Assembly (NCBI GenBank): GCA_913774715.1
Contig: CAJYHS010000109.1
Location: forward strand, 42,639-106,638
DNA length: 64,000 nucleotides
Reading direction: 5' to 3'
DNA from: an uncultured Siphonobacter sp.
GTDB lineage: Bacteria > Bacteroidota > Bacteroidia > Cytophagales > Spirosomataceae
Part shown: one piece after another, positions 44,814 through 50,393 of the stretch
Layout of the letters: each line of letters begins with the position of its first letter
Position numbering within the stretch: position 1 is the stretch's first letter
Notes under the pieces: model-generated
Seen by the model: the letters and a program-made list of their open reading frames with translations, nothing else
What the model was told of the DNA's origin: nothing
The model's database searches: none
Translations under genes and position numbers: made by a program

Positions 44814-46940
44814 ATGACGATTCATGTATTAAATCATACGGTTCGGAAGCTGGCCGAGCTGTTTTTCCCAGATAAACTAACTCATTCCTCAACTAAACAT
44901 CTCATTGAATCGGCCAAGATTTCCAAGGCTGAATCGCTGGAGGCTTTCATAGCGGAGTTAACAGAAAAAGCTTTCACTGTGGATCTGGCCCTGGTGAAGC
45001 ACGAAAAAAACGAAGACGATTTCTGGAAATGGAAAGAGGAAAGTGAGCACCCCTTTGTCTATTTTGAAAAAACCGGAGACGGTTATCGTCCCATCATTGC
45101 GGGTAAGGACCTAAAAAAGGGAAAACCTTATCACTTTGCCATTGAAGAATCGGGCGAACAAACGATTACCGGAGAAGGAATTACGCCAGTCAAAAATAAG
45201 AATGGCAAGGTAGTTTTTCTTACGGCTTTTCCCATGCACCCGCTTACGAAAGAAGGCGGCAATAACGAAGAAGCCGAACCTACTAATCCCTGGAGACGTA
45301 CGTTACAGCTCTTCAAAAACGAACGTCGCGACATCTATTACCTCTATCTCTACGCCATCGTTTCGGGCTTAATTGCCCTGAGCTTACCCTTGGGAAGTCA
45401 GGCCATTGTCGGGTTAATTCAAGGAGGGCTGGTCTTTTCTTCGGTGTATTTGTTGGCAGGTCTGGTTATTCTCGGCACATTGATTACGGGTATTTTACAA
45501 ATCGTTCAGGTATCCATTGTCGAGGTTTTGCAACAACGAATTTTCGCTAAAGCGGCTTTTGAATACGTCTATCGCATTCCTCGGATCAAGGTTGAATCGC
45601 TGAGCAAATATTATGCTCCGGAATTGATGAACCGCTTTTTTGATATTCTTACGATTCAGAAAGCCTTGCCTAAAGTGCTGATTGATATTACAGGGGCTTT
45701 AATCCAGATTTCATTTGGCTTGTTACTGCTCTTTGCGTATCACCCCATGTTCATTGTTTTTGGATTGTTAACCATCATTCTGATCTTCTTTGTCTTTCGG
45801 GTTAATGCCGCAAAAGGTTTGGAAACCAGCCTTAACGAATCCAAATACAAGTATAAAGTAGCCCAGTGGCTGGAAGATATTGCCCGGACGCTGAACAGCT
45901 TTAAAGTAGTTGGTAAAACCAATCTTCCTTTACAGAAAATGGATGATCTGGTGAGCCGTTACCTGCTATATCGGGAGAAGCACTTCAAAATTCTGCTCCG
46001 CATTTTCTATTACATGGTTGCCTTTAAAACGCTGGTTATCGCGGCTCTGCTGGTTTTAGGTATCTTCCTGGTTGTAGATCGTCAGATTACCTTAGGACAA
46101 TTCGTAGCCTCTGACATCATTATCGTTCTTATTGTGAGTTCGGTAGAAAAGCTAATTACCAGCATCGATACGATTTTTGATCTGGTAACAGCAACCGAGA
46201 AAATGGGAGCCGTTACGGACTTACCCCTGGAAAGAGACGGCGGTATTAACGTGCCCATTCGCGATCAGGAATTTTCGATGCAGACGCACAACCTTTCCTA
46301 CCGTTACCCAGATGGTAAAAGACCTGTTCTCCAGGGACTTAACTTGTCTATTAAGGCAGGTGAACGCATTGTGGTTACGGGTACAAATGGCGGTGGTAAG
46401 AATACCCTACTTCGAGTATTAAGCGGCATTCTGAGTGATTATGAAGGCAGTATTTCAGTGAATGGTTTCTCGTTGCGGGATATTCACCTGAGCGACTTCC
46501 GTAATGCCGTGGCGAAAAATGTTTCGCCCGAAGAGATTTTTGACGGTACTATTCTGGAAAACATCACCATGGGCCGGACGAATATTACCATTGAAGATGT
46601 TCGCTGGGTGATCGAAAGCCTGAATCTGACGGATAAAATCAGTCAGTTACCTAACGGTCTGGATACGCAGATGTTGTCGTCAGGACAACGGTTCTCGGAA
46701 AGTTTCAATGCCAAAATTACCGCAGCCCGCTGCATCGTCGAGCGACCTAAGTTGCTGATTTTCTCCGATTTTTACGGTTTGCTGGATCGGGAAGAAAAGC
46801 TACAACTCATCAAGTTTGTGTGTGATCATTCGCACCCCTGGACATTCATTACCATTTCCCACGATCCCGAAATCCTGGCGGCCTGCGACCGGGTTTTAAT
46901 TCTGGAAAATGGCAAAATTGTTAGTGACGGACCTTATTGA
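44814..46940 (+). CDS. type I secretion-like ABC protein with degenerate ATPase
   Basis: This is a 708-residue half transporter. Residues 1-160 are a soluble N-terminal domain without Cys-protease motifs. Residues about 165-450 hold an exporter-type membrane domain (LYAIVSGLIALSLPLGSQAI to IIVLIVSSVEKLI). The nucleotide-binding domain (about 475-708) has lost key residues: Walker A reads GTNGGGKNT, with Asn in place of the Mg-binding Ser/Thr; Walker B reads LLIFSDFYG, with Phe replacing the catalytic Glu; the signature is LSSGQ. The H-loop His (ITISHD) and the A-loop Tyr (YRYPDG) remain. It heads an operon with HlyD and TolC genes, so an export role is expected, with little or no ATP hydrolysis by this subunit alone. 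Confidence 0.88.
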   Translation: MTIHVLNHTVRKLAELFFPDKLTHSSTKHLIESAKISKAESLEAFIAELTEKAFTVDLALVKHEKNEDDFWKWKEESEHPFVYFEKTGDGYRPIIAGKDLKKGKPYHFAIEESGEQTITGEGITPVKNKNGKVVFLTAFPMHPLTKEGGNNEEAEPTNPWRRTLQLFKNERRDIYYLYLYAIVSGLIALSLPLGSQAIVGLIQGGLVFSSVYLLAGLVILGTLITGILQIVQVSIVEVLQQRIFAKAAFEYVYRIPRIKVESLSKYYAPELMNRFFDILTIQKALPKVLIDITGALIQISFGLLLLFAYHPMFIVFGLLTIILIFFVFRVNAAKGLETSLNESKYKYKVAQWLEDIARTLNSFKVVGKTNLPLQKMDDLVSRYLLYREKHFKILLRIFYYMVAFKTLVIAALLVLGIFLVVDRQITLGQFVASDIIIVLIVSSVEKLITSIDTIFDLVTATEKMGAVTDLPLERDGGINVPIRDQEFSMQTHNLSYRYPDGKRPVLQGLNLSIKAGERIVVTGTNGGGKNTLLRVLSGILSDYEGSISVNGFSLRDIHLSDFRNAVAKNVSPEEIFDGTILENITMGRTNITIEDVRWVIESLNLTDKISQLPNGLDTQMLSSGQRFSESFNAKITAARCIVERPKLLIFSDFYGLLDREEKLQLIKFVCDHSHPWTFITISHDPEILAACDRVLILENGKIVSDGPY

Positions 46941-47009
46941 TTTCCTAGCTCTCGTGTAGTTTAAAACCTGTTTTTACAGAAACTACCTACAGTCAATCAT
47001 TCTATAAAG

Positions 47010-48377
47010 ATGCTGAATATATCTCCCAAGCGAGTCGATCCGGATATGTCTGAGATCGAAATTAATTCACTAAAAACGCTTTCGACCCACCGAACGGGCC
47101 GTAAACTGGCCCGCTGGATTATTGGGATTCTGCTCATCTTGTTTATTGTTCTGTTCATGCCCTGGCAACAGAACATTAACGGTACGGGTACGGTAACGGC
47201 CCTTACCCCGCAGGATCGCCCCCAAACGGTACAGAATATCATTGCCGGAAGAATTGAAAGATGGCACGTCCGGGAAGGTCAGGCCGTTCAGAAAGGCGAT
47301 ACCATTCTGACGCTTTCCGAGGTTAAGGATGAATACTTTGACCCGAATCTGCCCGAGCGTTTAATTGAACAGGTTGGTGCTAAAGAAACCTCAGTGGAAG
47401 GCTATGAAACCAAAATCAGTGCGGTTGACAATCAGTTAACGGCACTGAGAAATGCCCTGCGTTTAAGTCTGGATAAGGCTCGAAATAAAGTATTGCAGTC
47501 TCAGGCAAAAGTACAATCGGACAGCGTGGACGTAATCAATGAGCAGATTCAGTTTCGCATTGCCGAAGTTCGTTTTGAGCGTTTCCAGCAGGGGTATAAT
47601 CAGGGATTATTTTCGAAAACAGAACTCGAAACCCGCGAATTAAGCTTTCAGGGGGCTCGGGCGAAACTGGTAGCCACGCAAAATAAACTGGCTATTTCAC
47701 GTCAGGATCTGATTAACTCCCGTATCGAGCTAAACTCGATTGAGGCTGAATACCAGAAAGAAATTGCCAAGTCATTCTCGGATCGTAGCTCAGCAGTATC
47801 TTCCCTGGGGGATGGTCGTAAAGAACTCTCGGAGTTACGAAATAAAGTAGCAAACGTCGGAGTTCGCCGCAATCAGTATGTCCTGAGAGCTCCTCAGAAT
47901 GGAATTGTGGTTAAAACGCTGAAAGCAGGGGTTGGTGAAACCATCAAGGAAGGCGAGCCTATTTGTACTTTACAACCGCTGAATCCTCAGATGGCCGTTG
48001 AATTATACGTGAAGGCCATGGACGTTCCTCTGATTCAGAAAAACCGGGAAGTACGGATTCGTTTTGACGGCTGGCCTGCTCTGCAATTCTCGGGTTGGCC
48101 TTCTGTCAGCGTGGGTACGTTTGGCGGTCGCGTCGTGGTTATTGACCAGGTTAACTCGCCCAATGGTGAATACCGTCTTCTGGTAACACCTAAGCTGGAA
48201 GAACGCCGGGATCACCCCTGGCCTAAGCAGTTACGTTTAGGCTCGGGTGTATACGGCTGGGTAATGCTGGATAGCGTTCCGGTATGGTATGAAATCTGGC
48301 GTCAGTTGAACGGCTTCCCACCTAGCCTTAAGGAAGAACCGAAAGGAGATTACGAAGGGAAGGGAGGTAAGAAATGA
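47010..48377 (+). CDS. HlyD-family membrane fusion protein
   Basis: This 455-residue adaptor links the inner-membrane ABC protein to TolC. A single N-terminal helix (WIIGILLILFIVLFMPW) is followed by half a lipoyl domain (IIAGRIERWHVREGQAVQKGD), a long coiled-coil hairpin from about residue 120 to 290 (VEGYETKISAVDNQLTALRN; KLAISRQDLINSRIELNSIE), the second lipoyl half (YVLRAPQNGIVVKTLKAGVG) and a beta-barrel domain. It starts 69 bases after the ABC gene and overlaps tolC by ATGA, so the three are one unit. Confidence 0.93.
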   Translation: MLNISPKRVDPDMSEIEINSLKTLSTHRTGRKLARWIIGILLILFIVLFMPWQQNINGTGTVTALTPQDRPQTVQNIIAGRIERWHVREGQAVQKGDTILTLSEVKDEYFDPNLPERLIEQVGAKETSVEGYETKISAVDNQLTALRNALRLSLDKARNKVLQSQAKVQSDSVDVINEQIQFRIAEVRFERFQQGYNQGLFSKTELETRELSFQGARAKLVATQNKLAISRQDLINSRIELNSIEAEYQKEIAKSFSDRSSAVSSLGDGRKELSELRNKVANVGVRRNQYVLRAPQNGIVVKTLKAGVGETIKEGEPICTLQPLNPQMAVELYVKAMDVPLIQKNREVRIRFDGWPALQFSGWPSVSVGTFGGRVVVIDQVNSPNGEYRLLVTPKLEERRDHPWPKQLRLGSGVYGWVMLDSVPVWYEIWRQLNGFPPSLKEEPKGDYEGKGGKK

Positions 48378-49828
48378 TGAATTCAGTCTTCCGTTTTCGG
48401 TTTTCAGTTTTCAGTTCTTGGAAGTTTTCCCGAAAGCTCCTTTTCCTTTTTATTCTGACGGGAAGTTACCATTTTGCTTTGGCTCAGGATTCGGTTCGGA
48501 TTTTTACCTTTTCTGATTACGCGGATCTGATCATCAAAAATCATCCCGTTATTAAACAATCCGAGCTTATTCCGGCAGATGCCCGTACAGAATTGATGCA
48601 GGCCCGGGGAATGTTTGACCCTAAACTGGCTTCGGATTTTAGTCGAAAAGAGTACAAAGACCGGGAATACTACAACCATTGGGAAAACTCACTGAAGATC
48701 CCCACTTGGCCTGGTATTGATCTGAAGGCCGGTTTTGACCGGAATACGGGTCCGTACATTAACCCTCAGTATCGCACACCGGATGCGGGTTTAGTGTACG
48801 CGGGACTGAGCGTTCCGCTGGCTCAAGGCTTACTGATTGATGCCCGCCGTTCTACCCTCCGACAGGCCCGGTTATTACAGGACATTGCCGAAGCTGATCG
48901 CCGGAAATTGGTTATTAAAATCATGTACGACGCTGCCAAGACCTATTGGGACTGGTATTTTGCCTATCAGCAATTTCGGTTTACTTCAGAAGGCTTAGAA
49001 CTGGCTCAGGTTCGTTTTACGGCGGTGAAGCAACGCGTAGAAATTGGCGATTTGGCTCCGATTGATTCCGTACAGGCTAAAATTACGGTTCAGGAACGGC
49101 AGGCGTCCTATCAGGAAGCTTTAATGGAATTTCAGAATACACGGCTGGGCATTTCCAATAATCTATGGACGACAGATGACGAACCCGCCGAGTTACCCGA
49201 GAACGCGATTCCGGGCGGCGTTACCCTACCCGAACCGACGCAGGAACAGCTAGATAATTTACTGGCCCGGGCTACTCAACAGCACCCGGAGCTGATTAAG
49301 TTTAATTTCAAGTTACAGCAGCTGGACATCGAACGGCGGTTTCGGCAAAATCAGTTATTGCCCGTCGTCAATGTGAGTTATAACTTCATCCGTGAACCGG
49401 TCAATATGGGTTCGTACGATGCAGGCTGGTGGATGACCAACAATTACAAAGTTGGGGCCGAAGTTAGTTTCCCTCTGTTTCTGAGAAAAGAACGCGGGAA
49501 ACTTCAGCAGGTTCGTATCAAACAACAGGACCTTCGCTTTGATCAGCAACAAACCCAGCGAACCATTGCTACTACGGTACGTCAGGTTTTTAATCAGGCC
49601 CGATCTTATCAGCAACAGGCTGAATTTCAGCGTTTGGCTACGGAAAACCAGGCAGTTTTGGTACGTGCGGAACAGCAAAAGTTCAATATTGGAGAAAGTA
49701 CGCTATTCCTGGTAAATACGCAGGAAACGAAATTGATCGACATGCTAATCAAGACGGAATCGTTGAGAACTAAATACGCCAAAGCTTGGGCCAACAGCTT
49801 GTACGCTGCCGGGAGTAACCCACAATAA
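48374..49828 (+). CDS. TolC-family outer-membrane efflux protein
   Basis: This 484-residue protein has the signal peptide KLLFLFILTGSYHFALAQ. The helical barrel repeats of the family are visible as two similar halves: long helices rich in Gln/Glu (RRSTLRQARLLQDIAEADRR; RVEIGDLAPIDSVQAKITVQERQ) and again near the end (QFNIGESTLFLVNTQETKLID-like). The first 16 residues (NSVFRFRFSVFSS) precede the signal peptide and are encoded by a copy of the TTTTCAGT-type repeat found elsewhere in the window. The ATG overlaps the HlyD stop. Confidence 0.93.
   Translation: MMNSVFRFRFSVFSSWKFSRKLLFLFILTGSYHFALAQDSVRIFTFSDYADLIIKNHPVIKQSELIPADARTELMQARGMFDPKLASDFSRKEYKDREYYNHWENSLKIPTWPGIDLKAGFDRNTGPYINPQYRTPDAGLVYAGLSVPLAQGLLIDARRSTLRQARLLQDIAEADRRKLVIKIMYDAAKTYWDWYFAYQQFRFTSEGLELAQVRFTAVKQRVEIGDLAPIDSVQAKITVQERQASYQEALMEFQNTRLGISNNLWTTDDEPAELPENAIPGGVTLPEPTQEQLDNLLARATQQHPELIKFNFKLQQLDIERRFRQNQLLPVVNVSYNFIREPVNMGSYDAGWWMTNNYKVGAEVSFPLFLRKERGKLQQVRIKQQDLRFDQQQTQRTIATTVRQVFNQARSYQQQAEFQRLATENQAVLVRAEQQKFNIGESTLFLVNTQETKLIDMLIKTESLRTKYAKAWANSLYAAGSNPQ
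48388..48422 (+). repeat. TTTTC(A/G)GT low-complexity repeat inside tolC start
   Basis: The tract CCGTTTTCGGTTTTCAG continuing with TTTTCAGTTC has 7-8-base units. Related tracts occur at 10208-10260 and 56606-56695, both intergenic; here it is translated as the start of TolC. Confidence 0.55.
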
Positions 49829-50163: not shown

Positions 50164-50182
50164 TTGCTCTTTTAGCCATATG

Positions 50183-50216
50183 AAAAGTCAGCTTCAATCA
50201 TGAAGCTGACTTTTTT
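50183..50216 (+). terminator. tatA terminator
   Basis: AAAAGTCAGCTTCA/TGAAGCTGACTTTT is a perfect 14-bp stem with an ATCA loop, followed by a T run. Confidence 0.92.
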
Positions 50217-50364: not shown

Positions 50365-50393
50365 GCTCTTTCGGATTGTAAATCCGAAAGAGC
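50365..50393. repeat. palindrome family A, copy 2 (13-bp stem)
   Basis: GCTCTTTCGGATT and AATCCGAAAGAGC pair perfectly around GTA, the same core as copy 1 with one loop base changed. Confidence 0.85.

Follow-up and report, generated by a model that had tools for sequence, protein, structure and literature searches.

ATP-binding cassette (ABC) exporters and type I secretion are regarded as ATP-driven, and export without hydrolysis would be surprising for this class. In the passages found in one review (PMC8277102), tripartite systems were energised by ABC, resistance-nodulation-division (RND) or major facilitator superfamily (MFS) pumps, and those passages held no ABC case lacking the nucleotide-binding domain (NBD). 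SbmA is proton-driven, and its presumed ancestor is a YddA-like ABC transporter whose NBDs were lost (PMC13316013). Here we describe an ABC-HlyD-TolC operon at positions 44814 to 49828 of a 64,000-nucleotide stretch of DNA, the window, from an uncultured Siphonobacter sp. (GenBank assembly GCA_913774715.1, contig CAJYHS010000109.1, positions 42,639 to 106,638 of the forward strand). Sequence comparisons showed that the NBD is degenerate in the Bacteroidia members examined, constrained in the window's genus and dispensable to the family. The operon probably encodes a tripartite envelope exporter that evolved from an ATP-driven ABC transporter of the type I secretion kind and no longer needs ATP hydrolysis.

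An earlier note, made from the letters of the window, had recognised a three-gene operon with an ATGA overlap. The three open reading frames (ORFs) were intact at its coordinates, the Pfam domains agreed, and the 4-base overlap lies at 48374 between the HlyD and TolC genes. The parts of the operon are listed below in window coordinates.

44814 to 46940, + strand: ABC-exporter-fold protein with a pseudo-NBD, 708 aa, intact ORF; Pfam ABC_membrane and ABC_tran
44814 to 45284, + strand: N-terminal domain, residues 1-157; probable degenerate C39-like domain, from the whole-chain predicted fold compared with HlyB
45285 to 46241, + strand: six-helix transmembrane domain (TMD), residues 158-476; conserved core of the family
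45885 to 45905, + strand: coupling helix 2 region, residues 358-364, RTLNSFK; R358, F363 and K364 are conserved where an NBD is present and are lost or changed where it is absent
46242 to 46937, + strand: pseudo-NBD, residues 477-708; from Pfam, alignments to ABCB1 and homologues, and the ratio of nonsynonymous to synonymous substitution rates (dN/dS)
46380 to 46406, + strand: degenerate Walker A, GTNGGGKNT, residues 523-531; from alignments to ABCB1 and homologues
46692 to 46706, + strand: ABC signature position, FSESF, residues 627-631; from the same alignments
46752 to 46787, + strand: degenerate Walker B and D-loop region, LLIFSDFYGLLD, residues 647-658; from the same alignments
47010 to 48377, + strand: HlyD-family periplasmic adaptor, 455 aa, intact ORF; Pfam HlyD_3/Biotin_lipoyl_2
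48374 to 49828, + strand: TolC-family outer membrane factor, 484 aa, intact ORF; two Pfam OEP matches

Comparison with described systems

Gene order and part list were those of the HlyB-HlyD-TolC class of type I secretion (TIGR03375 LssB, TIGR01846 HlyB), with the ABC exporter, HlyD and TolC genes adjacent. The family differed from that class in its ATPase motifs, the window NBD being changed and a nested clade of the family having no NBD, and in the TetR-type regulator gene found at many loci. The window protein also scored far under the NCBIfam cut-offs (LssB, the best profile, 190.6 versus 693, HlyB 134.4 versus 726 and PrtD 145.2 versus 510 bits), and no Pfam or NCBIfam model named the family. 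The NBD-less clade, but not the window protein, shares with SbmA/BacA (SLiPTs) an ABC-type TMD free of an NBD; no SbmA/BacA Pfam match was obtained here, and the origin lies in another ABC branch. SLiPTs have no coupling helices and import peptides, and no HlyD or TolC partner was described in the SLiPT literature covered, whereas this family has predicted coupling helices and is tied to HlyD and TolC. SLiPTs couple transport to the proton gradient by means of a glutamate ladder, for which this family offers candidate charged residues.

The peptidase-containing ABC exporters PCAT1 and ComA and the NHLP bacteriocin exporters share profile similarity and the overall architecture with a C39-like N-terminal region, but here the C39 peptidase domain was not detectable by sequence, the NBD was degenerate or missing, and only the predicted fold resembled PCAT1. 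The heterodimers TM287/288 and TmrAB likewise keep degenerate catalytic residues over evolution (PMC7756269); one of their sites is active, whereas no active-site partner is known here and one clade has no NBDs. No description of the family was found among open-licence PubMed Central (PMC) papers, and this large family is apparently undescribed, in line with what the earlier note had thought possible. Anti-phage defence was considered and rejected, as PADLOC gave only weak ATPase-domain matches.

Degeneration of the ATPase motifs

The motifs were read by alignment to the solved ABCB1 and to about 175 homologues. Walker A (GTNGGGKNT) retained K529 and had Asn in place of Ser/Thr530, and S651-D652 replaced the DE pair, Ser651 standing for the Walker B Asp and Asp652 for the catalytic Glu. 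H-loop His683 and the A-loop Tyr were retained. The alignments agree with the loss of the Walker A Ser/Thr and the catalytic Glu, and with the two retained residues, as read in the earlier note; the replacement of the Q-loop Gln by Ser571 adds to the defects listed there. The signature, which had been given as LSSGQ, was indeed non-standard and had been misplaced: LSSGQ (621-625) sits in a loop upstream, and the residues aligned with LSGGQ are FSESF (627-631), which is worse than had been claimed. A homodimer would have both composite sites without the signature, catalytic Glu, Walker B Asp and Q-loop Gln, and the motif alignments support the view that the ATPase looks dead with both of its sites defective.

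Degeneracy extended through the family. In a motif table of 164 NBD-bearing rows, one of which (L090) is a canonical neighbour, Glu occupied the catalytic position in only 27, the Q-loop and signature Gln were rare, and most rows were without signature residues; the Walker A Lys was retained in 159. Nearly all homologues outside one distant clade were without several catalytic residues, and the HlyD-TolC context persisted. The defects were conserved alongside adjacent HlyD and TolC genes, which was the check proposed by the earlier note, and no canonical NBD was found among the Bacteroidia homologues examined. Homologues with normal Walker A and DE motifs in the same operon context, which according to that note would point to a single decayed copy, occurred in the distant clade only, and the window protein is no lone copy of this kind. 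A pseudogene or single decayed copy was rejected on the family-wide degeneracy and the low dN/dS.

Identity to the copy of the window genome was 52% in the TMD and 38% in the NBD across the family (162 rows), and 59% and 45% among relatives (39 rows). A canonical ABC exporter from related genomes, used as a control, gave 50.5% and 69.5% (29 rows), so that the conservation of TMD and NBD is inverted relative to a canonical ABC exporter. Comparisons inside the window's genus, limited to dS values of about 1 or less, gave a dN/dS of 0.033 for the NBD; the TMD values were 0.018-0.025 and those of HlyD 0.030-0.033. The pseudo-NBD is under strong purifying selection in this genus.

Two loci are recorded here as side observations. 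The gene at L090:3922-5754 encodes a canonical MsbA-like ABC exporter with LSGGQ and immediately precedes the gene of a degenerate family member, an in-locus contrast. In Siphonobacter sp. BAB-5405 (genome G004; L048:6670-8782, which is the place also given as L054:6001-8113) the close counterpart of the window ABC gene is broken into ORFs of 244 and 473 aa that overlap each other; the split is either a frameshift or a sequencing error, and HlyD and TolC are intact downstream.

Members without an NBD

Eleven proteins of 332-369 aa ended at the TMD-NBD linker, and 12 more loci brought these to 23. HlyD and TolC genes followed in all 23 loci, the distance from the TMD stop to the HlyD start being -25 to +67 bp. 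The NBD-less proteins matched ABC_membrane only in Pfam, had dN/dS values of 0.02-0.05, and grouped as a single clade (SH-aLRT 100) that arose from within the degenerate proteins, close to that of the window. The N-terminal domain was absent from all of them and from many other homologues. At least 52 genomes in the search of the same taxonomic family, counted by eye, had a match of NBD-less size.

An assembly or frameshift artefact was rejected as the source of these forms, given 23 operons, tight TMD-HlyD junctions and no NBD remnant. When 13 NBD-less genomes were searched with the window NBD, no detached family NBD was found; the best matches (E 1e-22 to 1e-28) were at the ordinary ABC ATPase background, a level equal to that of the second-best matches in NBD-bearing genomes. 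A detached NBD gene supplying the NBD-less members was rejected on this result. Genome G036 carried one NBD-less and one NBD-bearing copy (loci L041 and L042), each with its own HlyD and TolC, and genome G054 carried two copies of the system.

Coupling helix 2 in ABC exporters contacts the NBD. In degenerate NBD-bearing members, 63 TMD positions reached a conservation of at least 93%. Only three of these were retained in fewer than half of the 23 NBD-less proteins: R358 (11/23), F363 (4/23) and K364 (0/23, all Arg). W352 (17/23) and E445 (16/23) were mildly reduced. The three positions lie in or beside a helix predicted at 360-366 in the window model. Because K364R is a conservative change and all the NBD-less sequences descend from one ancestor, we read this as a pattern and not as a statistic. 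On that reading the pseudo-NBD would still dock in the proteins that have one, and coupling helix 2 would be left without a docked partner where the NBD is gone.

The charged residues E237, K283, K287, D291, K346, R387, E434, E445 and K446 hardly varied across the family but were not conserved in seven canonical exporters. E434, in predicted transmembrane helix 6 (TM6), was E or D in 174 of 174 family rows.

Predicted structures

The model of the window protein (pLDDT 83.5) best matched HlyB in the HlyB/D complex 8dck (E 2.7e-30, TM 0.74, 716 columns), with PCAT1 second. The N-terminal domain, left unclassified by the earlier note, indeed had no sequence match: Pfam gave no C39 domain, and its profile searched against PDB sequences gave only unrelated weak matches. 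The predicted fold of the whole chain suggests that it is probably C39-like. HlyB was also the first match of the NBD-less model, and coupling helices were predicted in both models, the NBD-less one being of low confidence (pLDDT 65).

The order of loss

The distant clade (L164-L173, L176-L178 and L180), from other classes of the phylum, kept the Walker A Lys-Ser/Thr and the DE pair. The H-loop His was present in most of its members, a few signatures were near-canonical (e.g. LSTGQ), and the Q-loop Gln was absent. Many of these proteins (L164-L172 and similar loci) had N-terminal extensions and lengths of 700-830 aa. With Walker A, DE and mostly the H-loop kept in this clade, its state looks ancestral and an ATPase ancestor is likely.

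In a free quick tree rooted on the outgroup, the DE-intact proteins had long branches and fell within the degenerate grade; the branches to the outgroup were very long. A constrained tree with the DE-intact clade beside the canonical outgroup was better by 25 log units (p-AU 0.896). Because the constrained tree scored better, the order from ATPase to pseudo-ATPase to no ATPase is favoured, not proven.

Distribution and gene context

A homologue was found in 51 of 59 related genomes, in 164 of the 182 genomes examined from the same family, with all 30 genera represented, and in 76 of 297 genomes sampled across the phylum, and a GTDB genome scan confirmed at least 590 relatives. The 80 GTDB relatives listed were nearly all Bacteroidota, Cytophagales, Saprospiria and Flavobacteriia among them, plus one metagenome-assembled genome (MAG) titled Gemmatimonadetes. 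The member in that MAG (L129:2686-4799) has Glu in place of the Walker A Lys (GADGSGEST), and its presence there reflects either mis-binning or horizontal transfer. Most genomes were single-copy; the window genome had no near paralogue, its next-best match scoring 104 bits.

HlyD followed in 101 of 108 NBD-bearing loci, and TolC in 96 of those 101. A TetR-type gene, detected with a profile built from four seeds of which three matched TetR_N in Pfam, was found upstream at 75 of 158 loci with an NBD and at 11 of 17 without one. With such a regulator close to roughly half of the loci, the system may serve induced efflux, and its substrates may be small or hydrophobic compounds and not a dedicated secreted protein. 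Among the homologue loci examined, neither a conserved operon ATPase nor a second pump gene adjoined the system. Type I secretion loci have a secreted cargo protein, often one with RTX repeats, encoded close by; no cargo gene was recognised beside homologues, and no systematic search for one was made.

Inside the window the operon neighbours were unrelated enzymes, and promoter-like sites around the operon showed no excess over shuffles. Strong inverted repeats lie between TolC and the next gene, at 50182-50215 (15 pairs) and 50365-50393 (13 pairs). In the same interval a spurious ORF repeats NALSDCKSERA and resembles an interspersed palindromic repeat.

Possible mechanisms

In the proposed exporter, the inner-membrane ABC-fold protein, the HlyD adaptor and the TolC duct would form the conduit. 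The TMD alone would carry out transport; alternating access driven by an ion gradient is the most likely mode, and candidate family-specific charged residues for the coupling are E237, K283, K287, D291, E434 (TM6) and E445/K446. Where present, the pseudo-NBD may be a docked dimerisation, structural or regulatory domain held by coupling helix 2. That transport proceeds without ATP hydrolysis is likely; that it is coupled to an ion gradient as in SbmA has about an even chance. Ion-gradient driving was not among the options of the earlier note, and by the precedent of SbmA, in which an ABC-exporter TMD runs on protons, it is possibly the one that applies.

Several observations weigh against an ATP-independent exporter of this kind. 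With the Walker A Lys so widely retained, the NBDs might still bind ATP or hydrolyse it very slowly. Unlike SLiPTs, the NBD-less proteins conserve coupling helix 1 and most of intracellular loops 1 and 2 (ICL1 and ICL2), and the low confidence of the NBD-less model applies here. TetR adjacency is partial, with no such gene adjoining the window operon. Most members of the DE-intact clade have the same charged residues, which are thus older than the loss of the ATPase and may serve structure only.

Some importers share ATPases, and a separate general ATPase, namely another ABC protein acting as heterodimer partner or shared NBD, might energise the TMD in trans. The many other ABC ATPases in these genomes and the conservation of the ICL1 residues E270, R274 and D277 in NBD-less proteins fit this proposal, which we nevertheless consider unlikely: no such ATPase is conserved next to the system, copies are mostly single with no near paralogue in the window genome, and the absence of a detached NBD from NBD-less genomes, together with relaxation at exactly the coupling helix 2 residues, weakens what had been one option of the earlier note. 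Its two other options, nucleotide binding without hydrolysis and a regulated channel, cannot be the core mechanism of the family because one whole clade has no NBD; nucleotide binding could regulate NBD-bearing members. A CFTR-like conduit, in which ATP binding without hydrolysis gates a passive channel, would account for the retained Walker A Lys, the A-loop Tyr of the window protein, the purifying selection on the pseudo-NBD and the near-invariance of F363 at the docking helix in NBD-bearing members. The nested clade keeps everything else without an NBD, so nucleotide gating is not essential to the family, and such a conduit is rather improbable.

The ABC-fold protein could also be no pump at all: as a scaffold or sensor in the membrane it might assemble HlyD-TolC for another pump or for a substrate that is already periplasmic. 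The tight coupling of TMD, HlyD and TolC would agree with this, as would the dispensability of both the N-terminal domain and the NBD, but conservation of the whole TMD, cytoplasmic loops included, exceeds what an anchor needs and no second pump gene adjoins the system, which makes a scaffold decidedly improbable. Least credible is an ordinary ATPase that tolerates its motif changes and still hydrolyses ATP. Some ABC proteins tolerate non-canonical sites, and Walker A and DE, in most cases the His and in part the signature survive in the DE-intact clade. The window protein, however, has five catalytic elements changed together, and a related clade has no NBD, leaving very little room for this explanation.

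Implications

It falls a little short of an even chance that this is an ABC-descended tripartite exporter family that has turned secondary (ion-gradient-driven), with living intermediates that have an ATPase-like NBD, a pseudo-NBD or no NBD in the same HlyD-TolC operon. If true, ABC pumps would have given rise to secondary transporters along two independent paths, that of SbmA and this one, and this family would be the first of the kind to operate within a tripartite export assembly. An ATPase disabled and then deleted, with the TMD and HlyD-TolC retained, would show which parts of an ABC transporter can be separated and how a primary pump can change into a secondary one. Because the intermediates live in related genera, the way in which SbmA-type transporters could come from ABC pumps would be directly testable. 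Automatic annotation probably mislabels these genes as ATP-driven exporters in hundreds of genomes.

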